Source: Dicyema japonicum (Eukaryota > Dicyemida > Rhombozoa > Dicyemidae). Taken from it: a DNA stretch of 64,000 nt. Under the pieces are notes generated by a model that was given only the letters and a program-made list of their open reading frames with translations, had not been told where the DNA came from and made no database searches. Shown here piece by piece: positions 1 through 61,200 of this stretch. Position 1 is the first letter of the stretch; each line of letters opens with the position of its first letter. Both the position numbers and the translations under genes were made by a program. The stretch lies in the NCBI GenBank assembly GCA_011109175.1, contig RDEW01000033.1:434001-498000 (forward strand). The letters are read 5' to 3'.

Positions 1-952
1 AGGGACTTAAGTGGAGATATAACAATTGTTAATCCTTTCATCAAAATCGCTGGGAGTTGGTAACAGAGACTTTTTCCACCACCAGTGGGCATCAGAACAA
101 AGCAATCGTGCCCGAGGAGGGCTGCGTTTATTATTTGGAGCTGATTTTGGCGGAATGTATGAAGACCGAACTTGCAGTGAAAAGTCCTCATGGCCTTCTC
201 ACTGTGGGGATGATCAGTTCGGCAAAGAATAGGGTCTTGGCTGTCGTCTACTATTTTCTTAAATTTTTCTGATGAAAAATTTTGTTCTTGCTCTTTGTGG
301 TACTTTTCTATGTTTTCCACAGCAAGGGAGAATTCGTCGTCGGATGGAAAATCAACCAGGGGAAAATTTTCCGTGATTTTACCAGTTTTGGGAGCCACGC
401 GGATCGAGGATTTGTTTGATAATGAAGAATTGTGAGGATACGTGAAGTCATCCACTTTGGGAGACGATACGGAAACGTCAGACTTCCTTGAAGTCATAAA
501 TTACTCAAACCAAACTTCGACAAGTTCGCAAAGTTCAGAGAGTCCGTCAGGATCAAGTATTCCGCTGGAACTAAGATTATTGGCTCTGGAAAGAAGCTCA
601 CAAATAGATCTGGAGATCTCCTTCTGATTAAGGGAAAATTAACCTCATTTGACCTCTTGCTACTATTATTAGACGATTCGAAAGATGATACTCGCTTTGA
701 AGAAACGATTTCTTTTACTGGACTTGGAATAGTCATTCTTTCGTTGGGAAGAAATTTTGCAGGTTTTTTGTCCACAGTAGAATTGGCTGAGCCATGGAAC
801 GTAGAGAAATGCTGAAATAAGTGAACACATCAACCGTATTCATATCAGCAACGGATGACACATATGACTTCCAAGGTGGGTGAAAAGGGATTTTAATGGA
901 TCTTCTTTGTGAAATGTCTAAGAGTTCTTTTGTTATAACAAAATCAGTATTT
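1..952 (-). CDS. blm: BLM-type RecQ DNA helicase, N-terminal part (cut by window edge)
   Basis: The minus strand reads open from 486 to 1 and holds the start of a RecQ helicase core: [20 protein letters not shown] (motif 0), then the Walker A stretch [16 protein letters not shown], then TIVISPLKS at the edge. The match is closest to Bloom helicase, including [16 protein letters not shown] just before the core. Exons 511-623, 644-811 and 835-952 join in frame across introns 487-510 (24 bp), 624-643 (20 bp) and 812-834 (23 bp), all GT-AG. Exon 511-623 gives a leucine-rich segment ([18 protein letters not shown]) where BLM has its N-terminal dimerisation helices. A further 5' exon is likely beyond an intron at about 953-986; the start codon was not located. 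The protein would unwind recombination and replication intermediates in the nucleus. Motifs Ia to VI lie outside the window. Confidence 0.9.
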
Positions 953-1189
953 CTGCAGTAATTTAACTATTTTACTTGAATATTACATGTTGGCCGACTT
1001 GTGAATTAATACATTCGGCTAATTGCATATAGCCACAAAAGATATTTAAAAAATTGGCGCTTTATTTAAATTGAATTGAAATGAAAAATGAAATGAAAAA
1101 ATTAACTTATTTAATAATCATCTTATAAGTAAAATTTTTCGATAATATTTTATTTAAACAAATTTATAAAAATTTAATGTTATTGTAAA

Positions 1190-23451: not shown

Positions 23452-23693
23452 ATCGACGTATTAAATATTGAAGCTAACATCTCTAGCGTTGAGGACCCAG
23501 ACGCCTCAGTTCCGTAATGGAAATAGAATCCGGTCCTCTGACTCTGGAATTCCGCGTCATACTCATTCAAGAATCGACGTATTAAATATTGAAGCTAACA
23601 TCCCTAGAGTTGAGGACCCAGACGCCTCAGTTCCGTAATGGAAATAGAATCCGGTCCTCTGACTCTGGAATTCCGCGTCATACTCATTCAAGA
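23452..23693. repeat. Tandem duplication, two 121-bp units, upstream of rps8
   Basis: Units 23452-23572 and 23573-23693 are almost identical, each starting 'atcgacgtattaaatattg' and ending 'catactcattcaaga'. On the minus strand they encode a LINE-J RT finger (SIFNTSINTNSIPEIWK). The block ends about 90 bp before the rps8 start codon. Confidence 0.8.
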
Positions 23694-23784
23694 AGAAAAA
23701 ATAGTTATGTTAATTATTTTTTTAATTTATATAAAAATATAATTATAAATATTAATAAATATTTAAATATAAAACGTGTGATTA

Positions 23785-24400
23785 ATGGGTTGGTGTGTTG
23801 TAGTTATGTTTAGGAATTTCAAGAGACTCACAACATAAACGAAGAAAGACAGGCGGACGAATGCCTGTATTCAGGAAGAAGAGGAAATTCGATATGGGTC
23901 GTCAGCCAGCGAATACAAAACTATCAACTAAAGAAGTAGTTAGACCAGTGCGTTGTCGTGGAGGAAACAAGAAATATAGAGCATTGAGGTTGTCTTCAGG
24001 AAGTTTCTCATGGCCATCGGAAGGATTTACAAAGCGTACTAGAATAAATGATGTGGTGTACAACTGTACATCCAACGAACTGCTTAGAACAAAGACTATA
24101 GTGAAGGGGTGTATTCTAAGTATTGACTGTGCTCCATTTCGTACTTTGTATGAGAATTACTATGGAGTAATCCTTCCAAGGAAGAAGGGAGATCAGATGA
24201 CTGACAAAGTTGGTGATATTTCAACTTCTTTATTGGATCAGTTTGTGAGTGGAAAGTTATTGGGTTATATTCTATAATTATTTGTAGCTATTGTTACTTC
24301 TCGGCCAGGACAACATGGTCGTTGTGATGGGTACATTCTTGAGGGTTCAGAGTTGGACTTTTATATTAAGAAACTTAAGGCCAAGAAGGGTCATGCTTAA
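23785..24400 (+). CDS. rps8: 40S ribosomal protein eS8 (RPS8)
   Basis: Three exons: ATGG at 23785-23788, 23814-24263 and 24288-24400. Introns at 23789-23813 (25 bp) and 24264-24287 (24 bp) are GT-AG. Splicing restores the universal N-terminus [16 protein letters not shown], then [38 protein letters not shown], and after the second intron [17 protein letters not shown]. The product has 188 residues; the vertebrate protein has 208. The difference is a lysine-rich insert before [12 protein letters not shown] that is absent here. It is a structural protein of the small ribosomal subunit. The first exon carries only the start codon plus one base. An AT-rich stretch (23700-23780) separates it from the tandem block, so the promoter must be very short. 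Confidence 0.97.
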
Positions 24401-25830
24401 TATTTGTTCCTTATTTGATGATTTGTTTTCCCAATTGTTTCTTATTACTATTGATTTCTTTTAGTCTTGTTAGGACACACTGATCATCAGAAGCTAACGG
24501 CTTTTAAAGGACCTTACTCAGTTTCCAGAGGTTCCCAAAGTCTTTGAGTAAGAGGGGCCAAGGATAGAGGATTCTCTTAAAGGTGGGATATACTTTGATC
24601 TGGGTGAGTGGTTCATGAATCTAAGGAGCTAATATGGGAGAACAGTGTATTTCCCTTCCTATAGGTTGATCGGTGGAGAAAATAAATATCTCACGATTTA
24701 CTGAGTAAATCCCACAATCGGAGATGTGAGAGTGGATAGCTTTTGGCTCCGGAGTCTCGGCAAGTAAAAGAGTTTGGAGTAGTTGGTTATACTGTTGGGT
24801 ATTTTTTGAGATGGATTGGACAAGCCATATGTTTTTCCATGAATTGAAAGCAAGCTATTGGAGATGGTTTGAGATCTGAAAACTTGTGATTTTCAATAAA
24901 GTAATCGATTTGAATGTACAAAGCACAATTAGTCCTTGGGAGATATTTTTGGTTAGTTGTAGGTAAATAACATAAGAAAGTGATCTATGATGGAGAAGCA
25001 TAATGTTTTGATCTATTTGGCGGAGATATTGAAGCGTAAAAAAATTTACCAGCGTAGGAAATATACCTCCTGGGTGATGTATTGTTTGTTCCTCTTGATG
25101 TATAAACCTATGAATCTCTTAGACATTTGTTTTACGCTCTCTTCAAAAGACTTAGCCAGCTTAGAGAATCTTTGAGAACTATGCAGTTTATTCGAGTAGA
25201 TTTTTCTACCAGTCCAAAGAGTATAGCCATGAAGTTAGGGCTGCGGTTCTTAAACTCAACTTTATCTTGAGAAAGGCGCCGAGTTTATCCGTCTCTCAAT
25301 AACCTCTTTATTCAGCCGCGTGAATTGTAGATTGAACGTGTGACATCCTGGTGGTCAACGAGACCAAGGTGAAAAAGACCAACACTACTTTGCTGCATGG
25401 ATTCAATTCTATATATATACCGTGGGTAGAAGGTGCTGAGGCTGTCACTGGAACAACATTGTTTTACAATAATGACTAGGGTAATGACTAGGGCAAACAT
25501 TTTTTAACCTTAAAATTTTTGAGATTGATGGATTGGACACTTGTAAAATATAAATACGAAACAATAAAAGACAAATGTTGGTTTAAAGACTATTTATTGA
25601 AAATGGACATTACGTAGTTTTCCAGATTTCATGTACAAAAGTTTCTGTTTGTCCTCAAAAAACTCTTGAATTGCGAAAAACATCTTTCGACAGATGCCGA
25701 GGATGGTTAATAATATAGAAAGAACGAATAATCTTCAGGAAAGACATTTTTACATTCCATATTAATAATTTTAGTTAGGTCGCTTTCCAAAATTCTCTTC
25801 TCCAAATATTTTGACCCCTGTTTCATCTTT
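24401..25830. other. Unassigned stretch downstream of rps8
   Basis: No family could be recognised. Two ORFs might be exons. A plus-strand ORF at 24987-25175 starts MMEKHNVLIYLAEILKRKK. A minus-strand ORF at 25312-25500 has a signal-peptide-like start (MFALVITLVIIVKQCCS) and 62 residues. Neither could be extended convincingly with short introns. Confidence 0.3.
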
Positions 25831-25834
25831 CCCA

Positions 25835-26890
25835 AAATTTATTGCACTAAAAAGAAAAATTGCTGTTGCATCCTCTTGCATTGCGGCCATTTTGTTGCCT
25901 GGGGAAACAACAGCTCATTCTCGGTTTAAAATACCAATTTAAAATTTTTGACAATTCTAATTACCATATTCCTTAAGATTCCAACATTGCAAAATTGTCC
26001 AGAGGCGTATGAGACGAACTCCTATGTCCTATTTTTAGAAAAGAGTGTTTTGAAGCGGTGGATAGAATCCTCCGGATTTCAATAATTGTAGTTGTTTTTT
26101 GGAGGATTTTTAACCGTGTTATGTGGTGATTTCCGTCAAATTTTTCCAATCGTGAAGAGAGGCATAAATGCTTATGTTATCAATGTCTGCATTAAAAAAT
26201 CATATTTATGGAGACACATGAAGAAATTTGAGTTAATTATAAATATGCGAATTTTGGATGCCTCTCTTCTACATTCAGAATTTTTATTGCGTGTTGGGGA
26301 AAATAAAATACCCAAGGACAATAATCAGAATAAAACGTTGCCTCCAGAGTACATTTTACCGCTTGGTTCGAGAGTTGAATATCTCTCATATATTTATCCT
26401 GATTTTTTTCATCCACTTTCCCTATTTGCTAATAATTGTATATTAGTAACAGATAATGAAGTGGTCCGAGAAATCAATAGTTTATGCATCAAACGATTCC
26501 CGGTTTTCAACCCGGAAAATTTTTGCAATCTGTTGAAATATCGGGACTTCCAGATCATCAATTAGAATTAAAGATTGGTTGTCCAATCATGTTGATGAAA
26601 AATTTGCAACCTCCCAAACTATGTTTAGTCGTGATTGAGTTGCACAAGAATTTGCTTGTTGGAAAAATACTTTTTGGTCAATTAAAAGGCGAAGTAGTAA
26701 TGATTCCAAGAATAAAAATCTGTTTGGAAGAGAAAGAGAGCATACCGTTAGAAAAAACGCAATTTCCAGTGAAAATATGTTTCGATGTGACTATACACAA
26801 AGCCCAAGGACAGACGATGAACAAGGTGTTGGTGCTTTTGGAAAGACCTGTGTTTAACACGGACAACTCTACGATGCTTTGAGAAAGGGA
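25835..26890 (+). mobile_element. Helitron helicase (Pif1-like) remnant
   Basis: Motifs of the Helitron SF1B helicase follow in order: IAVASSCIAAILLPGETTAH and SRFKIPI (25850-25940), DELL with FEAVDRILR (26010-26075, motif II region), FLTVLCGDFRQIFPIVKRG (26106-26165), GCPIMLMKNLQPPKL (26578-26625), and FDVTIHKAQGQTMNKV (motif VI region, 26780-26830). There are stops in the first third and one frameshift near 26540. The Rep domain is not in the window, so this is a truncated Helitron. Confidence 0.85.
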
Positions 26891-26994
26891 ACATTTAAAG
26901 AGAATGTGAAATAACTTAATTATGTTTTATGTTAAGTAAAAGTCGTGGTGAATACAGCCGGTAAAACAAAACAATTGTTTTGGAAGGTGTTCTC

Positions 26995-27115
26995 AGATAT
27001 GATTAGGGCAACCATAAAATTGCAACTTTTAAAATATAAATTGCAACAGAAAATTGCTTTAATTGCAAAAAAATTGCATTGCTGAAAAATATACGAAATC
27101 ATTTATTGTACAGTG
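26995..27115. repeat. Subterminal ATTGCAA repeat array with TAGGGC end
   Basis: After 'gattagggcaacc' the sequence repeats ATTGCAA-like units at least six times within about 100 bp. The pattern parallels the GTCAAA arrays at 36.9-37.15 and 45.13-45.27 kb, which also begin or end at TAGGGCG. Probably one end of a nonautonomous DNA transposon. Confidence 0.45.
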
Positions 27116-27254
27116 AAGTTTCTTAAATTTGCTCAAAATTGTTTCTGAACTATTTTTGGACAGTTTGGGAATTAAAAAAAAATTTTATTTAAAAAACCAT
27201 TAAAGCAAAATATTATTTTTATCAAAATAATCAGTTTATCTGCATTGACTAACT

Positions 27255-28285
27255 TTACACGATATGGTTTCTCGCACAGGCCGCGACACATGAAGACTGT
27301 AATTTGCTCCATAGACGTTTACAAATCTTTCGACTCTGTCAAGGAGGATTTTTACTTGGAAAATTTACTAATCAAAGATCCCTGGAAAGCTCAAACTCTG
27401 GCTAGCTAATTTCCTTAGTGGTCGGAGGGGATGCGTCTGCATTGGCCAGTCAAGGTCTATTTCACGGCTTTTCCCTAATGGAGTTCACCAAAGATTCCCT
27501 TTGTCTCCAGTTTTATTCAAACTATTCATGGCGGATCTCTCCACTCCAGAAATCGAAAATGATATTATTCTAACTTTTGCCGACGACATCGTCATTGCGT
27601 CACGCGATCAGGACATCCAGATTGCCACTTCGAAATTGCAAGAAAATCTGGACCATCTTGACGAATGGCTATCGATGAATCGCCTAACTGGCAGCAGTGA
27701 AAAGTCCGTCACAACCCTAATTACTTCAGACAAGAGACTGGGAAAACGGTCGAACTGAAGGCAAACAATGAAGCTATTCCTTTTAGAAAATCCCAAAGGA
27801 TCCTTGGGATGACTTTTGACATGCATATGTCATTTTATCTCCATGTTGAAAACGTAATTACGAAATGCGAACAGAAAACTAATGTCCTGAAATGCCTCAC
27901 AGGCTTATGAAGGATCAAAAAGCATTCTGTTTTGAGCACTTTATATAAACAATTCATCGAACCATTCATCTCTTATGCATGTGGCATATGAGGCCCATTC
28001 ATCTCTTAGACGAATGTCTTGAAGATCGAGGCTAGCCGGAAAAAGAGGTCCCAAAATCAAGGAACGCTAGATTTCTGGAGAACTCCAGCCACCAATGTTT
28101 CTTGAAGCCTTGATTAGAATGAACCATAAAACTTGCCGTCGTGACTGCGAAGGTCCAGTCACTTGACCAATAAATGCTTGTGTAGAAAAGAGGGATGAGC
28201 ATCGGGCCCAGATGAGGTCATTACTATTACGTGCTGGGATCACGAGATTAGTTAGTTTGTGTAACCGTGGTCTCTGGTGTTATTA
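27255..28285 (+). mobile_element. LINE-J copy 7, RT end to 3' tail, broken
   Basis: RT pieces CSIDVYKSFDSV (about 27310), SPVLFKLFMADLSTPE and LTFADDIVIASRD (27500-27605), and thumb to about 28000. The 3' end reads 'gggatcacgagattagttag' followed by 'ggtctctggtgttattatta'. The same 3' end occurs alone at 61410-61480. Many stops. Confidence 0.75.
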
Positions 28286-28860
28286 TTATTATAAGCCCTA
28301 GACGGAATCAACCGGATGGCATAGTGTTAGGTGTCCTGCCTATGCGGAGCTATAAATATCATGGCTCTCGTGAAAAGGCTGTTATTATTATTAGACGGAA
28401 TCAGTTTATAGTAAAGCCCTGTCTCGTCCATATTGTAAATTTCACCTCCTTTATAAAGTTTGGAAATTTCTTAAAAGTGATCTCAAATCTTTCTAGGTCA
28501 GGTTGTTTGTCAGTTATTATTTTCCCATTCGAAAACCACGTCTTTTTTGAATCTTGTAAAAAATCCTTTAGAAGTCTTGAAATCACTAATTGATAACCTT
28601 TCAGCAATATTTTGTGCTTTATTTGATATTAGTGCCTCATTCGAAAAGCACCTAACATAAACAAATTAAAAATATCCTTAGATTCCATCAAATCCATCCA
28701 TTCTAATATCATAGTATCAAGTTCAGGAAATTTTGACGATTTGCATGTCTTTGTTGAAGGAATATAATTTTTAGATGTTTTTAAAATGGACTCTGGGGAA
28801 TTAAGAATGTTATTCACGGTTTTTTTGAAATTCGAGAATTAAATAAATCAGAAAATATGT
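28286..28860 (-). mobile_element. pogo/Tigger transposase remnant 1
   Basis: The minus strand gives KFPELDTMILEWMDLMES and then SNKAQNIAERLSISDFKTSK plus GFFTRFKK, a CENP-B-type helix-turn-helix, and then YNMDETGLYYKLIPS holding the first D of the DDE triad. Order and spacing fit pogo/Tigger elements. Frames are broken, and a SINE is inserted right after the MDETG block. Confidence 0.8.
28298..28402 (+). mobile_element. Short SINE-A insertion with target-site duplication
   Basis: Flanked by 'agacggaatca' on both sides (about 28299-28309 and 28392-28402). The insert of about 80 bp has a tRNA A-box-like 'tggcatagtgttagg', then the LINE-R-type tail 'cctgcctatgcggagcta', 'atggctctcgtgaaaa' and TTATTATTATT. 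Confidence 0.75.
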
Positions 28861-29458
28861 GAGCGATTTTTTGGTACAATTTAGTTTTATTCTCGTCTTT
28901 ATATCTCAAACGTGTGGCCGATTTAAGGGAAGGAATTCACTGTATTAAAATCTGAATCACAGGCTCTAACAAAGATTGTTAATTGTGCAATTCCAACAAC
29001 GTCCACTGTTTCATTGATCGTAATTTAAGAATAATCAAATTTTAAAATTAAGACTTTAATTTGTGTTTCAAATTCAAAGACATTTCATTAATGTGTTCGG
29101 CAACAGTTTTTCTGATTAATGAAATATCTTTAAATGTTGTCTGGACAAATAATTATTGTTGTTTTTACAAGGCATTGCTTGATGAAATCACAGTCGGATA
29201 TGATTTTCCATTCATTGCATGCATTCTGATAACTGTATGATCGATGATTAGATCGGTAGTGCTCATTTAGGTTGTATTCTTTCATTATAGCGATAAACTG
29301 GTTACAATAATGTATTTTTACATCAATTATTAAATTTAAAAAATAACAAAATGATTTTTTGTTTTTTATAGCCATTAAATCGGGCTTCACTTATGCTTGT
29401 TAAGGTCGTATGAGGGCCGCACCTATGCTTGTCGAGGACCGCATGTTTGACACCCCTG
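28861..29458 (-). mobile_element. hAT remnant 3, N-terminal end with terminal repeat
   Basis: The right end 'gcatgtttgacacccctg' (29441-29458) is the inverted terminus of the hAT group also seen at 49522 (caggggtgtcaaac). Inside, the minus strand encodes MKEYNLNEHYRSNHRSY (29285-29235) and FIKQCLVKTTIIICPDNI, as in the N-terminal part of GTF2IRD2/ZBED-type transposases. Confidence 0.7.
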
Positions 29459-29727
29459 CTCTAGCACAAAGATATCTGATTTGTTGTCTTGTACTTTTGT
29501 ATTTGTGCTTATTGAATCTCGACTGATTCACTCACAACTACTGATTGCACAGAATGAGTTTTCAGTTACTTGGATTTTTTATTCCGTATTGTCTGCATAA
29601 TGAAAATGTAAGCATCTACAACTTCGTTATGGTCACTATTCGGCAATCGACCACATCTTGTTGCCAAGTGGTTTTCTGGCTGAGTTGCAGTGGCTGCAGC
29701 TGGCCCCAGGATTATCAACGAATAGGT
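29459..29727. other. Spacer, no gene seen
   Basis: No recognisable coding sequence; it separates the hAT end from LINE-F. Confidence 0.3.
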
Positions 29728-31280
29728 TTATGTCTTGTGATAGACACAACATTCCTTCGCATCAGAAAAGTTATTCTCGTGTGATAGCCAAATGGAAGAC
29801 TCGGTGATGTCGATATTTAAATCACTCAGACAGTGGAATAACACTCTTTGTAGCAGCTTTTTCTGAATTTCTTCAATTAGCCAGTTCTTTTGATGTTCTT
29901 TTAATAGGACGAGACTGAGAATATCAGGCCCTTGAGCTTTATATTTTCTGCATAGAAATTCGGCGATTGTGGCCATGTTTGTTTTCTTTGATTTGATGAC
30001 CCGCAGAATCCCCGTCTCCTCAAACATTAAGTCGACTTCTTTTCAAAGTCTCTTAGGAATTGTATGGGTTATCCATGACCACTTTTGGGTATTTCGCATT
30101 TAAAGCCCTACTCAGTGGGTCCATTATGAGTACAAATATCTGCGGTGACAAAGAGTCACCCTGCAGAATTCTCTTTTTCACTCTGAATTCCCCAATTTGT
30201 TTCCGGTTGAAATTCAATTTAATTTTCTACCTCATGACCAAGGTTCTTTACAATGGTCACAATCCAGTAAGGGAGTCCAGAGATATCGAGTACCCGGTAC
30301 AAAAAGTCATGATCCACCGAATCGAACGTCTATCCAGGCAGTGGCCAAACTATTCCCGTTCTGCCGGTTGATACATCGGTTTAATAGTGCCTGCTCCTTA
30401 GCTCCTTGGCAATCCTTCGTGTTCACGATTGATTTTCTCTGATGGTGTTCCTCAATGTAGTCACTTCGTAACCACTTTTATAAATTGGGAATACACGTAA
30501 TTAGTCTTAGGTTTTTTGGGGTATGGCACAAGTCTTTCTTCTAGATAAGATGTGTGATTCCAGTGTAGAACCACTCATCTGGAGTATACTTTCCGTGTAT
30601 TAACTGAAACCTCTTTACATAGTTGGTCATGAATCGATGTAAATTTTTTGAGGAATAAATTGTTGTATACCCAATCACATCCGCTAGTTCTCCAGCTAGG
30701 GAGATACTTAATCAATTCCAGAATGTTTTTTGCTGAAGTCTGAAAATGTCTGTCCTGTTCCAGTCACTCGTCTGTTCATCGAAAATGTGTTCTCACTGCT
30801 CGGCTGTTCCTTCCAAATGTTCTCCCAAAATAAAAAACACTGGCTTTCGTTGAACAAAAATTGAAAATTCTCTTACTCCTCGTCTAAGCTACGATAAAAA
30901 TATATTCGGTTGAGTTCTAAACATCAATTTTGTCTTCTGAATTCCTTTCTAGATTCATGTATTCAAGTCTTTTCTCCACAATCTTTATGTTATCCTGGAT
31001 ACAAGTGCTGATTCTCCCTAATTCACCTTTCTTTGACTTTCGGTATCCATATTGGCTTTATTGGCGAAGCACATCCCTCCTTTCATCGTCGTATCTTTGG
31101 TTTCCTCTCAGTCCAGTATTCTCTGTTCGGCTCTTCGGTAGAGAATTTGGATCAATTTTTTGTACTCTGAACAGCCCTCATTGGTTTGTTCATCCGGTTC
31201 ATACACAGGAAGGTCCGCAGGATTATTATTGGAAACAATCGTGTTCATCACCACAAGAATTAATTATTTAGGCTTGCATA
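29728..31280 (-). mobile_element. LINE-F: reverse transcriptase remnant of a different LINE class
   Basis: On the minus strand: PDEWFYTGITHLI (about 30570), RLITCIPNL, NTKDCQGAKEQALLNRCIN (about 30420-30365), AWIDVRFGGSWLFVPGTRYL (fingers/palm), RRILQGDSLSPQIFVLIMDP (about 30175-30115), and a thumb-like KEVDLMFEETGILRVIKSKK at 30035-29985. The motif set, with QGDSLSP but without the LINE-J signatures, resembles R4/Dong- or NeSL-like RTs that carry a restriction-like nuclease. It may be the source of the 'LIEVGITSQ' cassettes; that link is inferred. Several stops. Confidence 0.6.
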
Positions 31281-31690
31281 TTAGTACTTTTCAATAAGGT
31301 TAAAGTCTTAAGATTTGTTAGTGTAGATCGGTTATATACTCAAATTATCTTGTCTCATGAGTTTTTAACATACTTAGACTGTTCTCTCTTAGATTAACTA
31401 TAAATATTTGAAAATACCAATAAACTCTTATTTATAGACAATTTATATCTCTTTTCATAAAAGATTTTCTCTTTTTAGTGACTTGTATGGGCTTCTGATG
31501 ATGGATCTATTACTGATGGCCAGAATCACAGAGAGGTTTCATATGAAGACAAAAAGGACATGTACACACATTAACTATATACAGAATACGACTAATATAA
31601 CAAATAACATAGACAATATCAAATCTAACGTAATCCAGTTTCCCCCATATAACATTCAATATAAGCACTCATATCAGACTTTTTAACCCC
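31281..31690. other. Intergenic, no gene seen
   Basis: AT-rich; covers the 3' flank of vps53. A short extra vps53 exon could lie near 31630-31680. Confidence 0.35.
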
Positions 31691-31691
31691 C

Positions 31692-33771
31692 TCAAGTTAC
31701 AATGCAAAATACCTTCATATCTAGTATCCGTTCAAAATGGTGAACACTCGGAGAATCACAATGCTGAAGATAGGAATGCACAAACTCTGGAATATCTGAC
31801 TCTCCTGAGCTCATAATAATCTTAAGAATTAACTCAGCCCGATTCATCTCATCGTTCACAGCCTTGCTATAACTGTATGTGCTTACACAGTATCACCTTG
31901 TTGGTGGAGACCGAATATTAGAAGATCCAGCCACAGGAAGATTCTGGAGGCACATTTTGATGGAGTAAGTGTCCAAGAGGAGCTGTTCTGCAGCCAGAGG
32001 GACTACCTGTCGGCATTTCATCAAAGATTCCAAGTATTCCTCAACAAATACACTAAAATTGACAAAACCCGACCAACTCAAGAAAATGACGACAAAATGA
32101 AATGAAATTATCTCAGATTATGAGAAAGATGAACCCTTACAGACGGAATCCACCCTTCCATAGCATCACTAATAGCACTGATATATCCACCTTCGTTTCC
32201 CGTAGTAACCACGTTCTGCCACGAGAACTTTGACATTGTCTTCAAATGAGGACGACAGAGACCGATCAGATCATCACACAGTACATTTATAGCGTTAGTG
32301 AGAACACTTAAATTACCAAAATTATACCCCTTGAAGGGATTCTCTGTCTTGGAGGACTCTGGGTGTCGACTTATCAACTGGAAGGCCGATTCGGTACAAA
32401 ATCCAGCGGTGGAGATCACAACACAGATCTCTTCGATGTCAGAAACCGTTAATCTCTTAGAAGACTGGAAAAACTGAGACTTTTGATCAGAAGTGACCCT
32501 CGAGAGGGTCTGATTGAGCACGTGCTCTGCATAATCGTTCAGGAATTTGTAGATATATGAAAATCCCAGTCCTAAATGAGCAGACTCGTCCACAGATCCA
32601 CCAAGAACAAAAAACAGTTGGACAGCACTGGATAGCACGTGGGTATCATCCATAGTGGCGTCCTCCTCACTGTGAGTTAGATCTCTTAGGTTGTTCTCCA
32701 GAGCAGTTTTGTACACACCCACATGGGGACGGAAGCAAGAAGTGATTATTCCATTAAAAGAACCCCCTTCCAACAGATTCTCTGCAGACAATCGGGTTTG
32801 CAACAAATTTTCAAACTGTGTAAGCTTTCTGATAGCCATTAAGATATCCTCTCCACTAATTTCTAGGCCTTCTATGTCGTCAGTGAGTCCGTTTCTAAAT
32901 TCCCAACATAACCGAATTGCCAGTCGCTCAGACAGTTCCCATTCGTCTGGAAAAACTCCCCCAAACTGGTTCTCAAATTCAGAAAGCATCCGTTTAATGT
33001 ATTTTATCCTTAAAGTGACCACATGCAGCCATCCATCCTGCATGGAAACAAATATCTGAGCAAAATGATCACAGATCCATCCAACGAGAGGCTCAATATA
33101 GTCGTTTCCCAGCTCAGTCAAAGTAGTAGAGGCCTCAGCCAACATAGGGAGAGTTATTGACAAATCATCCTTAGCTGCGTATTCTATGACTGACTTAAAG
33201 TCCGAGTAGATCTTCTCAGCCAATAATTTATGGGTCTCTTCGAACTTGGACAGCAAAGACTGCACGTGAGTGTTCTTATATACAGAAAGTTTATTGGCAA
33301 GAACAGAAAGAGCGTGTACCATATGGGAGGCATCACTGTATTGTCTTGAGTCAGTGAAGAGTTCAAGTGACTGAATCCCCTGCATCAGCATGTGCACCTG
33401 AGTGAGAGTAGAGATGGACTCTGACAAGTTAGCCTTTCCCACATTCCACTTTCGAATGTCCCCTCTGATCTCCTCTCTTGTTTTAATCTCTTTTATGCGG
33501 ACTAGCAACTCCCTTATGTTGTTGTTAGTGATCTGCCAGTTACATGGGGTCTCTGCACAAACACACTGCAAATTTGCTTGTCTACGGTTTGGATTCTCTT
33601 CTCTACTTTGCTTATAACACTGTCCAGTTTGTTGAGCGACTCTTCATTTGGAAAGAGTTCATTTATGTAGGAGATTACATCAAAATCACTTCGTTCTAGT
33701 GGATCTTCAGGGGTTTGACTTGTAATGTCGCTTACAAGTAGGTTTATTGGGTCGTCTGAGTTCATTAACAC
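31692..33771 (-). CDS. vps53: VPS53, GARP/EARP tethering complex subunit
   Basis: Exon 1 (33559-33771) gives DPLERSDFDVISYINELFPN, the start typical of VPS53. A 26-bp GT-AG intron at 33533-33558 (alternatives of 20 bp nearby) joins it to a long exon from 33532 to about 32108 (IRELLVRIKEIKTREE, YIEPLVGWICDHF). Next comes FVEEYLESLMKC with AAEQLLLDTYSIKMCLQNLP (32060-31897), a 24-bp intron at 31873-31896, and SYSKAVNDEMNRAELILKII down to FERILDMK. All blocks line up with animal VPS53. The protein tethers endosome-derived vesicles at the trans-Golgi network. Two points are open: the junction near 32050-32150 has no clean GT-AG solution, and the C-terminus either stops at 31692 (VFCIVT) or continues through a 34-bp intron. 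Total about 600 residues versus about 700-830 in other animals. Confidence 0.92.
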
Positions 33772-33849
33772 ATTGAAGATTTAAAATTTTAAATATTATT
33801 TTATATTTTATTAATTTTATAAAAATATTTGTTAAACGATGAGTTTTTA

Positions 33850-34330
33850 TAATCTGAAAGAATATTTGTGAAAAAAATGTGTATTGAGAAGGCTGTCTCC
33901 TCCAACAATTTTGAAGACCGGATACGTCTACTCTACTTCTCCCCAAGTACGCTTAACATATTTCCCAGCAGAGGAAAAGATAAGCCACTAACACCCGCCG
34001 TAAAAGAAAACATCAATAAGTTTTTCTTATAAGATCACAAGAGTTTCATAAATGAACACCAATACATAAAAAATATATGGGAATCATCGAAGGCGTCAGA
34101 TATTACTTAATACACTGCAAACTGTTGGGAAATCTATCTCCAACGGTTCGAAAAAAATTGATAATGCTCTTTTCTTTTTCTGTACTAGTTCTTGCGTTAG
34201 AGTAAAGTCTGTTTTTTACTGTCTCGTGTATTAAAGGCATGTGTGGTTATAGAATCCTGGGAATCCTTACGTGAAGAATTATTTTTTCTCGTGAACTTTA
34301 ATCCAAACTTTTTTTATTGAAAGAACAATT
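33850..34330. other. Spacer with a short unassigned ORF
   Basis: A plus-strand ORF from ATG at 33878 reads MCIEKAVSSNNFEDRIRLLY and stops near 34030. It shares the intergenic space with the vps53 start and points away from it, so it could be a small divergent gene. No family recognised. Confidence 0.25.
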
Positions 34331-34379
34331 GTGGTACTTGAGTAGAGTTATTCACGGATTGTGAGGATATTGATGGAGA

Positions 34380-35310
34380 GTTTACAATTTTTTATTCAAA
34401 TTGAGTCCACAGATTTCCAGCCAGACCTTCGATCTTTCCGAAAAAGTACTAGTAATAAATTAAACCCGCTCTGTTGTCCAGTCTGGCACTATATTGGTGG
34501 CTATAATCCTTGATCTCGTGAACTTGATGTTTTCGGATAATGTGTCTGATTTTGGTCGTAGTCTTCTTTTCCCGTAAAAGACAGTGGAATTTAGCCTATT
34601 GCTGTTGGTAACATTTTGGCCAGTCGACTTGTTGGAAACATTTCGACCGATTTGTAGTCTTCATAGCTGGGTGTCAGAGTCAAGGACGGCAGTGAGGGTG
34701 ATTCATTGGCTTGTGTCTTTCCCTGCTATCGTACACTGCTTTAAGTGCTTTCTTATTCTCTTAATTTATCCATGCCATTGATGGATACAATCCTCAACTT
34801 ATATTACAGACATAATAGTGCAGAAACAGCTACAGTGCCCAATTTTTTCAACAGGATCGCCGGGATCACGTCTGGCTCACAGGAATGCGTGTTCTTTGAA
34901 CGAGAAATTTCCGATGCTACATCTCTCGGTATAAAATGACCTCTTAGATGTTTCTATTTAGTGTTCGATGGAATGTCGACTCTTGTTTGGTTTGTACTTA
35001 TTCTCACACAATACTTCATGAATTTGTTTAGATCCATCTGGTAATCAAATCATCCTTATTCTTACTGTCAGCCTTTTTAATGTTCCGTAACATCTTTCAC
35101 ATCTTTAAAAGTGAACCATTTTTGTTATTGGAAATTTCCTTCTTTGTAAACGTTTTGCACTTTCATAGGGCTCCTCGTTCAGTCCTCGGATTCTGTTAAT
35201 AGCTTCTCTTGTTAGATTCGTCTTACGTTTAAGGCGACTCTGTACGTCCACTTGTCCTGAGGACCCCTTTGAATATTTATGTTTCTGTTGCAACCCTTTA
35301 CCGGCAAAAC
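34380..35310 (-). mobile_element. LINE-J fragment (linker and start of RT)
   Basis: The minus strand resembles the LINE-J linker (SAKRLQRRKFPITKMVHF near 35105-35160) and the RT start (RRDPGDPVEKIG near 34870; compare RRDPGYSVEKDG at 12240). Heavily decayed. Confidence 0.5.
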
Positions 35311-35448
35311 CATCGCGTCAGCTGTGGAGTGTGCCTCTGTTGGGTTGTGATTCGCGTTGTTGAAGACCACAGTGTACATAATACAATATGCAGAAAATAA
35401 TAAAACTAGTATATAATAGCAAATTACTACATAATAAAGAAAACATAG

Positions 35449-36528
35449 TTAACCAAGATTACTATAGTAATCCGAAATAAATTCCCTTAATTTCCACAAT
35501 CCATGAATAATAACAAGCTGTAAACAGCATTCTATAATAAATGATCCGAATCCTCTATAAAATCCAGAAAATCCCTCCACTCTGAGTATTGATGTGTAGC
35601 AATCTCTCAGTCCTTCATATTTGTTCCCAATCACCATAACTCCGAGTCCACTAGCATCATCTATTATAGAGCGAGTCCCCTGAAGCACTAATCGTGCAAC
35701 AACTGTCCTCAAAGGGTACAAAAAACAGGATGAAACTGAACTACAGGTGGCAGCTATATTATAGTTTCTAATGTTGTCGTCCACAGTCCTCATAAATTCA
35801 TCATTCTACATAACCACATGCAGCAAACCGAGTCAGATTCTTTGGGTTTAAAGTAGAAGTGTTGGAGTAAATAATATATTGCATTAGTAATTACATCATC
35901 AATAAGACAAAGGGGGACTAGCATATACATTGGGATGACTGAGGAAGACTGGCCTACACCAAAAAGTCTGTTAATGCTGAGAATAAAAGTCTCTGTAACT
36001 CCAGGGGTTATACTGGCTAGTGAACTCTAAACTGTAATTTTACAATGAGTATTACTCTGACTGATGTTATTATTGAGGTTATGTGGAGAGGAATCACCAA
36101 TAGAGATGAGAGTCTTGTATTATTATAATAAATACATCTTATAAATATAAGAATCAATCTTTTTGGAAAATAAAACATCCCTATGTGTTAACCAAACTAA
36201 TACCCACAGCCATACTCTTGAAGAGTTATTTCAGAGAAATACTTGACTGCCTGAGTGAGAAGAGTGCAATGAAATCCCTTCCAGAGACAGTAGATGCTCT
36301 ATAATGAATTATGATAACACCTGGGATGATATTATATTGTAAAAGACAGGAATTACAGAAAATGGAGTTGTATGAAATGTGTATATAGATGAATTAACCT
36401 GGAATGCGGTTATGAAAGTACCTGTGCTTGTCTACAAATGACTGTGAATGGATGAGACACAGACATCTGTGCGAGAGTGCTTTTTTAAATCACTTAAATT
36501 AATACCAAAACAAATTTCCATCAGCCAT
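35449..36528 (-). CDS. slc25a46: SLC25A46, outer-membrane mitochondrial carrier-family protein
   Basis: Seven exons: 36506-36528, 36422-36479, 36321-36398, 36208-36298, 36056-36180, 35829-36026 and 35449-35805. Six GT-AG introns of 26, 23, 22, 27, 29 and 23 bp. The spliced frame is 930 nt (309 residues), open throughout from MADGNLFCTLAQ to the stop. Landmarks are SHPFTVICRQAQVN, TTPFSVIPVF, YCLWKGFHCTLL, the carrier repeat FLYPLRTVVARLVLQGTR, and YEGLRDCYTSILRVEGFSGF plus YRGFGSF. This order matches vertebrate SLC25A46 (about 418 residues); the difference is the missing disordered N-terminus of about 100 residues. The family sits in the mitochondrial outer membrane and acts in fission, cristae upkeep and lipid traffic at ER contacts. 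It is well separated from neighbours and flanked by transposons. Confidence 0.95.
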
Positions 36529-58139: not shown

Positions 58140-61100
58140 TTTCATTATTATTATTATTATAAGCAACTACATAGAATCATATAAACTATAATTCTATTCG
58201 TGCCGCGTCTGAACAATCCTCTTAATTAGCCTTTCCCATCTCCTCCTGTCCGATGCCAAGTGCCGCAGACTACTAAGGTCTTCACCGTCCTTTAGTGTCT
58301 GGTTACTGATCTCAGGTCACCATTAAGGACTTCCGGAAGAGTTATTCTTGGACGACCTCTGAACTTCTCCCCTGACGTATCGAAGTATTCTTCCATGACG
58401 ACGTTTGCTGGCGTGTCTTGTTCCAATCTGAGAATATGGCCAAACAATCTCCAGCGAGCCTTCATGATCATGGTGCTCAGAGGTCCGGAACCGCATCTTC
58501 TATATAAATTTTCACTCCCTACACGCATTGGCCACTTTAGTCCCAAGAGAGACCGAAGTTGCCTTCTGTGAAAGGAGTCAAGGTTTTGTTCGTCCGTTTT
58601 CGAAATTCCCCACGTCCCAGAGTTGTATGTTAGTATGGGCCTCACGAACGCCTCATACAACCTGAGTCGGAGTGATGGCCCGACCGAGCATTTTCTTATC
58701 CAACATTTCATAAGTTTTTGCATAGTAACCGTAGATAACAATTTTCTTCTTGCAATGTCTTCGGAGTCTCCGAGAAGAGAGCCAAGCTTTACGGTCTTCC
58801 TCCAACATTCACTATTGCGTAGTTCCATCCGCTTAATTTCAACAATATCCGTTTTCTGAACATTCAGTGATAGACACCATTTGGCCAAACAGCCTGATGC
58901 AACCTCCAAGAGACGTAAGAGTGCTTCTTTGTCAGTCGAGATAAAGTCAACATCATCGGCATACACGATCTCCATAATATCATTGTTGTAATACTTCCGG
59001 AGGTCTTGCAGAGCCGATTCAAGGTATATAGCAAACAATACTGGGGAAAGGGAATCTCCTTGGGGTGTGCCCACTGTTGAAATAATTTCCCGTGACAAAC
59101 ATTTTCCAATACGCACTCGTAACCTCGTGTTTGATAAGAGTATCCGTATCAGAATAACCGAGTCCTTATCCAGGAAACTTTCAAGCACTTCAATGAGTTT
59201 TCCCCGACGGACAGTGTCGAAAGCTCTGGTCAGATCAATTCCAAGGATAGTCTTTGAGCTCCGGAATCTTTGTTGAATAGCACATTGCCATCTATGGCAC
59301 CATACTACATCAGCCGTTGATCTCCCTGTCCTAAAACCACTCTGGCTCTGGGCCAAGTACCCGTCCACCGGCTCTTGGATCCGATTAAGAGTAATTAGGG
59401 CAAGGATCTTCCTTAAGGTGTTTAGAAGGATGACAGGGCGCAGGTTTTCAACTGGCCCAGGGGGTTTATTACCTTTTTGAACTGGTACTAGTATCCCCTT
59501 TCCAATTTCTGAAAAGTCCTTGTTTTCTATCATGTCATTCAGCAATTTTGAGAGTTTATCTGCAAGTTCTGGAGGGCCAAATTTTAGCAATTCAGATGGT
59601 ATATTATCTGGTCCTGGAGAGCGCCCAGATTTAAGTTTCCTTATCGCCATGCAAACCTCCTCCGGTGAAATGATCCGTTCAAGTGTTGTGTTCTTAGGCG
59701 TGAAATCTGATTTTTCTCCTTTTACAAAGAACAGTTGTTCAATATGCGATGCTATGAACTCTGTCTGTTCTGCAACATTTCCTATTGTTTTTCCATTTCT
59801 GTCATGCAAAATAAGTTTCACTGATTGGCTCTTCCTCCGTATTAGTCGTATAGCCATGAATGTCGCAGCATTGTCTTTAAGGTTTTCTACCTCTCTGATC
59901 TTGCTTTCCAACTGACTAGTGTGATGTAGTCTGTTTAGGAGTTTGATTTTTCTCTCAATTTGCCTTCGTTCTTGTTTCAGTTTGCAAACAGTCTGAGGAT
60001 CGACAGTATTTTCGGATCTAAGCCTTAAGTTCTTCTGCAAATTCAATAGGGCTGACACTTCCGGGTGACGCTGACTGCTATGGGGTTTAAGTTCCCCCAA
60101 ATGTTTGTCAGCAGCGGAAATGATCCCTCTCATAGTTTCGAGCCATGCCTTTCCTGGTGAAAGATCCGATGCCGTATTATTAATTGAATCCGATACACAT
60201 TCTTTATAGTCTGCTTGTACTTTTGGTGAAGAGCCCAAGAGTTCAGTCATATACCTTCTTGATCGCGTGGAATCTCCACCACGATGTGTTTGGAAGAAGC
60301 ATCTTCTATTAGTTATCCCGTAGAGGAACTCCTCCGCAGTTGGACCAAGTCTTAAGCTGAATCTTGCTGACACAATTTTGTGATCACTGTTAACAGTTAG
60401 TCCTCCATAAGATCTCGAGTCCCGTAAGAGAGATTTGTCTTTTACTCGACACAGAATATAATCGATCTGATTATAAATCCTTATCAGATTTCCGGTGGTC
60501 GATAGTCTAGTGCCCATCCACGTTGTCTTGTGGCGTGCGGAATGTTGGAATTGAGTATTGCACAGGAATAAATCAAAGGATTCGCAGAAATATGCCAGAG
60601 CAGTACCAGAATAGTTCCTGATCCCCCTTCCATGTGGTCCAATAAAACGTTCGTGTCCTTGATGTACCCCAGCTTTAGCATTCCAATCACCAGCGATAAA
60701 GAGGAACGATGAAAACTTCAGAGAAGATACGACCTCGACAAGTTCTTCGTAGAAAACGTCCAATTCCTCTGGGTTTTTGGAAACACGGCCACTATGTGGG
60801 GCGTACACGTTCACAATGGAAATTAGTTGCCTGGACTTCCCTTTGGGTCCAATAAGAAATTGAATAACACATATCCTGTCATCAATTTTCCAATATCGAT
60901 GTAATCTGGGGAGCAAATTCTTGTGAACAGCGAAACCCTGTCCATAGTGTTTACAGTACGATGGAAGGAGGATTAGTCTGTAGTCTCCAAGGTTTTCATC
61001 GAGTCCTTTTCTGAGCTTCGTCTCTTGGAGACAGCAAACAGAGCATCCATATTTTGCAAGGTCCAGACATAGTTGGTGCCTCTTCGACCAGTCATTAAGG

Positions 61101-61200
61101 CCCCTGGCATTGAAGGTAAGGGTAGAAAACCAGAGAGGATTATTCAAATACGTATTAGACATATGTGCTATAGAGGGACGTCACCACCTCAACCAAAGGT
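58140..61200 (-). mobile_element. LINE-R, nearly complete element
   Basis: From the 5' end 'gttgaggtggtgacgtccct' (about 61195) to the (TAA)n tail at 58160-58140. It holds one 956-codon ORF (reported separately) and a frameshifted C-terminal tail: TLKDGEDLSSLRHLASDRRR then WERLIKR to 58195. It is the least damaged mobile element in the window and gives the reference for the other LINE-R pieces. No target duplication was confirmed. Confidence 0.88.
58292..61162 (-). CDS. LINE-R polyprotein: APE endonuclease and reverse transcriptase
   Basis: 956 residues from ATG at 61162. The N-terminal AP-endonuclease-like nuclease has QET (46-48), VYAPHSGR (119-126), GDWNA (158-162), NQIDYI (231-236) and SDHKIV (259-264). 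A basic linker follows (about 395-425). The RT has GPDNIPSELLKFG (517-529), LRPVILLNTLRK (574-585), GIDLTRAFD (641-649, first catalytic Asp 643), TPQGDSLSP (699-707) and YADD (734-737, Asp 736 and 737). All catalytic residues seen are intact. The C-terminus carries ARWRLFGHILRLEQD and FRGRPRITLPEV, like RTE-group elements. A one-base deletion near 58295 ends the ORF about 33 codons early compared with other copies. It would nick the target and copy its own RNA there. Confidence 0.9.
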   Translation of the reverse strand: MSNTYLNNPLWFSTLTFNARGLNDWSKRHQLCLDLAKYGCSVCCLQETKLRKGLDENLGDYRLILLPSYCKHYGQGFAVHKNLLPRLHRYWKIDDRICVIQFLIGPKGKSRQLISIVNVYAPHSGRVSKNPEELDVFYEELVEVVSSLKFSSFLFIAGDWNAKAGVHQGHERFIGPHGRGIRNYSGTALAYFCESFDLFLCNTQFQHSARHKTTWMGTRLSTTGNLIRIYNQIDYILCRVKDKSLLRDSRSYGGLTVNSDHKIVSARFSLRLGPTAEEFLYGITNRRCFFQTHRGGDSTRSRRYMTELLGSSPKVQADYKECVSDSINNTASDLSPGKAWLETMRGIISAADKHLGELKPHSSQRHPEVSALLNLQKNLRLRSENTVDPQTVCKLKQERRQIERKIKLLNRLHHTSQLESKIREVENLKDNAATFMAIRLIRRKSQSVKLILHDRNGKTIGNVAEQTEFIASHIEQLFFVKGEKSDFTPKNTTLERIISPEEVCMAIRKLKSGRSPGPDNIPSELLKFGPPELADKLSKLLNDMIENKDFSEIGKGILVPVQKGNKPPGPVENLRPVILLNTLRKILALITLNRIQEPVDGYLAQSQSGFRTGRSTADVVWCHRWQCAIQQRFRSSKTILGIDLTRAFDTVRRGKLIEVLESFLDKDSVILIRILLSNTRLRVRIGKCLSREIISTVGTPQGDSLSPVLFAIYLESALQDLRKYYNNDIMEIVYADDVDFISTDKEALLRLLEVASGCLAKWCLSLNVQKTDIVEIKRMELRNSECWRKTVKLGSLLGDSEDIARRKLLSTVTMQKLMKCWIRKCSVGPSLRLRLYEAFVRPILTYNSGTWGISKTDEQNLDSFHRRQLRSLLGLKWPMRVGSENLYRRCGSGPLSTMIMKARWRLFGHILRLEQDTPANVVMEEYFDTSGEKFRGRPRITLPEVLNGDLRSVTRH

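Follow-up and report, generated by a model that had tools for sequence, protein, structure and literature searches.

Predicted ultra-short GT-AG introns and candidate longer AT-AC introns in the genome of the dicyemid Dicyema japonicum

Genes of the window and their predicted introns

The window analyzed here is a stretch of 64,000 nucleotides (nt) from the genome of the dicyemid Dicyema japonicum (C119:434001-498000 of the 64.67-Mb, 191-contig assembly), with a GC content of 32–43% (per 2 kb). Assembly size and GC content fit a dicyemid, for which 67.5 Mb has been published. Four of its genes, rps8, slc25a46, vps53 and blm, are predicted to contain GT-AG introns of 22–29 nt, and the same lengths recur at other loci of the genome, in which a few longer candidate introns of the AT-AC type are predicted as well. 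The gene model, which combines codon usage with introns bounded by GT and AG, was trained on 30 sequences (9 chaperonin, 16 proteasome and 2 S8e-family loci plus 3 window segments); the final, retrained version permitted intron lengths of 14–60 nt, and genes of less than 80 codons were left out of the counts. Intron length modulo 3 and in-frame stops were left unused because a frame-based model is blind to open introns with lengths divisible by three. The features, in window coordinates, are:

23785..24400, forward strand: rps8, three exons; spliced protein matches Pfam Ribosomal_S8e with E 2.9e-49, full family length
23789..23813, forward strand: rps8 intron 1, 25 nt; splits ATGG|GA and restores the MGISRDS start
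24264..24287, forward strand: rps8 intron 2, 24 nt; its removal takes out an in-frame stop
35449..36528, reverse strand: slc25a46-like mitochondrial carrier, seven exons joined by hand, 309 amino acids; Pfam Mito_carr 2.5e-15, in two stretches
36480..36505, reverse strand: slc25a46 intron 1, 26 nt; forced run and hand join
36399..36421, reverse strand: slc25a46 intron 2, 23 nt; forced run and hand join
36299..36320, reverse strand: slc25a46 intron 3, 22 nt; hand join (forced automatic run: 20 nt)
36181..36207, reverse strand: slc25a46 intron 4, 27 nt; placed by hand
36027..36055, reverse strand: slc25a46 intron 5, 29 nt; placed by hand (17 nt, 36027-36043, is equally in frame)
35806..35828, reverse strand: slc25a46 intron 6, 23 nt; model run and hand join
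31625..33765, reverse strand: vps53, five exons; spliced protein scores 165 bits for Pfam Vps53_N and 55 bits for VPS53_C
33533..33558, reverse strand: vps53 intron 1, 26 nt; best of three models (the automatic model put 23 nt elsewhere)
32112..32134, reverse strand: vps53 intron 2, 23 nt; automatic model
31873..31896, reverse strand: vps53 intron 3, 24 nt; automatic model
31691..31712, reverse strand: vps53 intron 4, 22 nt; automatic model
1..1028, reverse strand: blm, 5' part of a RecQ/BLM-type helicase gene that continues past the window; Pfam DEAD 2.9e-9
487..510, reverse strand: predicted blm intron, 24 nt; coding score and frame only
621..643, reverse strand: predicted blm intron, 23 nt; coding score and frame only
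812..834, reverse strand: predicted blm intron, 23 nt; coding score and frame only
953..975, reverse strand: predicted blm intron, 23 nt; coding score and frame only

The original prediction, made by reading this DNA by eye, had proposed short introns in all four genes. It is borne out by frame and family match in rps8, slc25a46 and vps53 and by introns of the same lengths elsewhere in the genome, although its count of about 25 compares with 16 introns modelled across the four genes. The two introns of 24 and 25 nt that it placed in rps8 stand, with the spliced protein spanning the whole Ribosomal_S8e family. A second rps8-like copy, similar to that of the window and containing in-frame stops, is located at C128:158062-158527 on the reverse strand (L003/L004/L037) and is probably a decayed duplicate. 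About 90 bp upstream of the window rps8, a 121-bp unit is present in two copies at 98% identity (23452-23694).

For slc25a46, the proposed six introns of 22–29 nt and 310 codons are matched by the hand-joined gene, which has six GT-AG introns and encodes 309 amino acids plus a stop; a 23-nt form of intron 4 was rejected as being out of frame. The automatic retrained model recovered none of these six introns, and forced automatic runs used other ends (20 and 17 nt) and split the gene. An N-terminal piece of slc25a46 matched no Pfam family. Protein searches for SLC25A46 and VPS53 gave no match at E 1e-3, so both assignments rest on Pfam; the name SLC25A46 is our presumption, the analysis itself pointing to the mitochondrial-carrier family.

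In vps53, the Vps53_N score is 139 bits for the longest open reading frame (ORF) alone and 150, 159 and 165 bits for models with a first intron of 23, 20 and 26 nt, respectively; VPS53_C is matched by the spliced models. The helicase gene, for which the label BLM is retained from the original prediction, continues with a Helicase_C match beyond the window (C119:433093-433380). The 20-nt intron previously placed in it was not reproduced, the modelled introns being 23, 23, 23 and 24 nt long.

Intron lengths and splice signals across the genome

With the retrained model, 118 of 119 introns, which stem from 24 of the 30 sequences, are 21–27 nt long, with the mode at 23 nt (5, 17, 50, 21, 16, 5 and 4 introns at 21, 22, 23, 24, 25, 26 and 27 nt, respectively, and one at 54 nt). 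When the prior was instead learned for lengths up to 120 nt, 103 of 109 introns fell within the same 21–27 nt range.

A distribution of this kind has to be set against the possibility that the gaps are not introns, but breaks in frame caused by pseudogenization or assembly errors, across which some GT-AG pair can always be found. Exonic GT-AG pairs of 21–27 nt number 22.8 per kb, so that such a pair lies nearly always close to a break; a broken rps8-like copy is indeed present on C128; and the introns are known from DNA only. The evidence on the other side makes this explanation highly improbable. Under a flat prior, in which all lengths between 12 and 120 nt had equal weight, 49 of 75 introns lie at 20–30 nt and the commonest length is 23 nt (23 cases), a peak that recurs in the other flat-prior runs; with five decoy boundary pairs in place of GT-AG, only 4–10 of 38–63 fall at 20–30 nt and the peak is gone. 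The CCT-alpha locus, for which those of the 120 best listed matches that carry a name come from animals, was also aligned with three animal homologues in a boundary-blind manner that assumed no GT-AG and accepted any intron ends and lengths of 12–110 nt. This alignment returned 23, 24, 25, 25, 22 and 24 nt for six of the seven introns, at most 6 nt from the model positions; the seventh is 15 nt long by this alignment versus 21 nt in the model. Furthermore, short introns are common to all nine chaperonin loci and rps8, and their composition and branch-like motif, described below, set them apart from decoys.

Two related proteasome loci (L020 and L022) retain introns of 26 and 23 nt despite differing letters. 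A divergent S8e-family gene on the reverse strand of C87 (L002/L036, 1040023-1040406), which seems to resemble NSA2, has predicted introns of 25 and 22 nt.

The splice signals of these introns are sparse at the 5' end. The 5' splice site is mostly AG|GT with scant preference beyond it, positions +3 to +6 holding 0.03–0.17 bit each versus the intron background (n = 117). Close to the 3' end, a TNAY motif with its A at position −7 or −8 is strongly over-represented. The splice-site weights span −8 to +1, and because of this, the model was rerun without them; with 18–32 nt permitted, the motif was found in 36 of 84 introns (shuffles, 11.6 ± 3.2, with a maximum of 24 among 300), compared with 197 of 1990 control GT-AG pairs; a run with 14–60 nt permitted gave 32 of 68, versus 9.8 ± 2.9 upon shuffling. 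The idea that the motif is a training artefact was rejected on the strength of this persistence.

The position of the motif depends on intron length. Among motif-bearing introns of up to 22 nt, the A is at −7 in all 16, and among those of at least 24 nt, it is at −8 in 12 of 15 (Fisher 3e-6); without the weights, the respective numbers are 11 of 11 and 5 of 7 (p 0.0025). The A thus shifts with intron length such that its distance from the 5' splice site stays at 16–17 nt (46 of 58 introns; 28 of 36 without weights). We infer that this A is the branch point. The intron interiors are also T-rich (46% T versus 27% in 584 exonic decoys), and all features combined separate introns from decoys with an area under the curve of 0.95, a value somewhat favored by the model's own selection. 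Separately, CACGTG is present in 3 of 117 introns (in L015 and L017; 1.1 per kb versus 0.38 overall), too few to judge.

Sequence was viewed for some of the small nuclear RNAs (snRNAs) that would recognize these sites: the canonical 5' arm, ACUUACC, is present in three of the four U1 copies viewed (ACUUACU in the fourth), and GUAGUA, the canonical branch-pairing sequence, in all three U2 copies viewed. The genome yields 25 matches to U2 snRNA, 22 of these above the cut-off, including six in the 851–963 kb interval of C115.

Several observations weigh against so narrow a length distribution and the machinery assigned to it. All introns were predicted from DNA sequence alone; the splice model learned from its own predictions and, in its final form, reached a maximum of 60 nt; 6 of the 30 sequences, slc25a46 included, are without a counted intron; and the best of the 11 U1 matches scores 69.0, below the Rfam cut-off of 69.5. 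In addition, the learned prior up to 120 nt gave six introns of 54–101 nt (54, 61, 69, 80, 89 and 101). For the 69-nt intron in L030, the retrained model of the locus broke up. The other five were replaced on re-examination. The 54-nt intron of L017 was re-spliced to 23 nt, with a gap-free CCT-zeta alignment through the junction (the corrected L017 has a one-residue gap 12 residues past the junction and further gaps elsewhere), the 101-nt intron of vps53 became 23 nt in the retrained model, and those of 61 nt (L018), 80 nt (L014) and 89 nt (L019) gave way to introns of 22–26 nt. The flat-prior runs listed additional long introns beyond those re-examined.

Candidate AT-AC introns and matches to minor-spliceosome snRNAs

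The original prediction held that all readable genes use introns of 20–30 bp. This applies to the four window genes and fails for the genome as a whole, where AT-AC introns of 48–53 nt are predicted. The genome contains a match to the U12 snRNA at 85.4 bits (Rfam cut-off 53), with the branch-pairing GAGUAAGGAAAA intact, and a match to the U6atac snRNA at 37 bits (Rfam cut-off 33), with AAAGGAGAG. Four occurrences in coding context stand out among 27 matches to an ATATCC pattern that demanded most of the U12-type 5' site (RTATCCTT) and branch site (TTCCTTRAY). Scoring of coding context for 25 candidates from these 27 matches placed L093, L090 and L080 at the top, followed by L098 and L087, with the other 20 negative; L098, a 34-nt candidate, is put forward by its coding score of 2.4 only. 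The four candidates are:

L080: voltage-gated calcium channel alpha-1 gene; AT-AC intron of 53 nt, junction gap-free versus Cav2.2
L093: GGPP (geranylgeranyl diphosphate) synthase; AT-AC intron of 52 nt, gap-free over 134 amino acids
L090 (the L070 site): ArfGAP; AT-AC intron of 48 nt, Pfam match of 5e-21 across the junction
L087 (the L065 site): phospholipase C; doubtful, PI-PLC-Y 2e-27 with 52 nt taken out

These loci share a common layout, namely ATATCCTTT, a gap of 27–32 bases and CCTTAAY. In the first three, which are clean in-frame AT-AC introns, AC follows exactly six bases past CCTTAAY, and the branch A is at −8 from the 3' end and at position 46 (L080), 45 (L093) and 41 (L090) from the 5' splice site; in L087, it is at position 43. 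With the intron taken out, the gene model scores 19.8 instead of 7.1 in L093 and 21.3 instead of 7.8 in L090. A short calcium-channel piece and a badly joined GGPP-synthase piece had matched no family; longer models later did. The strict GT-type U12 motif gave three matches, none with evident coding context. Candidates of 33 nt (L044), 35 nt (L051/L052), 40 nt (L071) and 42 nt (L058) were rejected by eye because the coding context is not open on both flanks. The L051/L052 pair (C62:977928 and 1001789) is a duplicated stretch that reads GTATCCTTT...TTCCTTAAT...AG over 35 nt.

The AT-AC introns could instead be substrates of the major spliceosome, like certain AT-AC introns of sodium channels, with the U12 and U6atac genes persisting as relics. 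Such U2-type AT-AC introns are known and have G at +5 (PMC2831892), and U6atac is just 4 bits above its cut-off. Yet all four candidates retain the full ATATCCTTT 5' site, with C rather than G at +5, together with CCTTAAY, most of both having been demanded by the search pattern, and U12 retains the matching GAGUAAGGAAAA, which makes this alternative improbable.

The case for a minor class of introns has weak points of its own. The U12-type patterns, searched with up to 36 bases between the 5' and branch motifs, are not more numerous than reversed-pattern controls (39 versus 37, 27 versus 26, and 3 versus 13 for the GT type), so that the minor introns stand apart solely through their coding context and the layout they have in common. 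Just four were found, and the fourth is doubtful: in L087, an intron that stops at the expected AC, 50 nt long, breaks the frame, and one that keeps the frame needs 52 nt and ends in AA. Even with these 52 nt taken out, the exons were left unjoined by the gene model, for which reasons the end of this intron is uncertain. The score of the calcium-channel gene barely rises upon intron removal (25.4 to 26.9). Finally, the search for minor-spliceosome components covered the U12 and U6atac snRNAs.

Besides the four genes described above, the window contains an open ORF of 962 codons (58292-61180) with endonuclease and reverse-transcriptase matches, in which no intron is needed, additional reverse-transcriptase pieces at 1189, 6777 and 38311, and overlapping ORFs at 26092-26882 that may encode a PIF1/Helitron-like helicase, judging by their translations.

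Probable difference in span between two spliceosomes, and comparison with known systems

Taken as predicted, the major and minor introns of D. japonicum are alike in their 3' spacing (branch A at −7/−8 versus −8) and unlike in their 5' span (16–17 versus 41–46 nt). The explanation that we consider probable is that major introns are held at a minimal, nearly fixed span in a genome that has also retained the minor machinery along with longer introns. The GT-AG introns of the window would be removed by the ordinary major spliceosome, with ~16–17 nt between the 5' splice site and the likely branch A and 7–8 nt from there to the AG; recognition might proceed by intron definition, aided by the T-rich interiors. 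That the predicted introns are spliced is itself inferred. The minor introns of 48–53 nt may owe their longer span from the 5' splice site to the branch site to the pairing of U11 with U12; these two bind the two sites as one preformed particle (PMC3584512). Only the major spliceosome is likely to have been squeezed to a span of ~16 nt, and the two spliceosomes would then have different lower size limits.

The main rival also accepts the introns as real, but attributes the greater length of the minor ones to history, the few that are left having not yet been shortened to their limit. Only four minor introns were found; across eukaryotes, the lengths of minor and major introns correlate, but some species that have undergone heavy loss of minor introns have longer ones (PMC10639083). 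We regard this account as somewhat less than probable. What speaks against it is the branch A at −8 in the three clean minor introns, as near to the 3' end as in the major ones, with only the 5' span being at least 40 nt; this position implies that shortening acted on the minor introns too. Under the explanation by two different spans, the genome could tentatively be seen as a natural experiment, in which the major spliceosome works with a span of ~16 nt, whereas the U11/U12 particle requires at least ~40 nt and leaves minor introns frozen at 48–53 nt despite an 8-nt 3' distance. A caveat that counts against this view comes from Blastocystis, where minor introns have a median of 39 (PMC10639083), so that 48 nt is no general lower limit.

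If correct, the 16–17-nt span to a branch candidate at −7/−8 provides a testable geometry for the definition of 23-nt introns in an animal, and minor introns about twice as long with equal branch-to-3' spacing make the minimum spans of both spliceosomes comparable within one animal genome. As regards annotation, neither a lower cut-off on intron length nor a restriction of gene models to GT-AG ends, both of them customary filters, works in this genome.

Ultra-short introns of dicyemids are themselves already known, and the unicellular Stentor has introns of 15–16 nt. As the original prediction stated, short introns are a documented dicyemid trait (PMC2222250, PMC2483917, PMC6543705, PMC6736024): the cited passages give 26.2 ± 1.9 nt for 16 introns (PMC2222250), values of 25, 24.93 and 2.51, taken as median, mean and standard deviation, for 41 introns of Dicyema acuticephalum (PMC2483917), a median of 27 (PMC6543705, which also cites Ogino 2010 on dicyemid introns) and a mean of 38.2 in the gene models of D. 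japonicum (PMC6736024). The introns predicted here resemble the published ones in length (~23–27 nt), in numbering several per gene and in the weak 5' splice site; they differ in peaking at 23 nt, compared with 25–27 nt in the published sets (38 nt in the D. japonicum gene models). The branch-like TNAY at −7/−8 contrasts with the statement in PMC2483917 that the available dicyemid introns are without a branch-point signature, a conflict with that description rather than with membership by length. The introns of Paramecium (20–35 nt) and of the Bigelowiella nucleomorph (18–21 nt) are likewise short, but belong to a unicellular organism and an organelle, respectively (PMC2222250).

As for the minor class, a literature search limited to open-access papers turned up no report of a minor spliceosome, or of introns of the minor type, in dicyemids and nothing about minor-intron spacing, and the dicyemid passages of PMC2483917 do not mention U12. 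The candidates resemble the U12-type AT-AC introns of animals in the ATATCCTTT 5' site, the TTCCTTAAY branch site and the AT-AC ends, and two of the four are in families with known minor introns, calcium channels and phospholipase C (PMC6865273); among minor introns, conversion to the major type is rarer for AT-AC than for GT-AG introns (PMC6865273, PMC2831892). They differ from animal U12-type introns in being only 48–53 nt long and in having the branch A at −8, compared with a best branch-to-3' distance of 11–13 nt (PMC3584512). Closer in size are the minor introns of Blastocystis, which are likewise very short, with a median of 39 bp, and in 196 of 253 cases of the AT-AC type (PMC10639083); that organism, however, is a stramenopile with 253 minor introns, whereas here at least three are predicted in an animal-like genome, alongside major introns of 23 nt.

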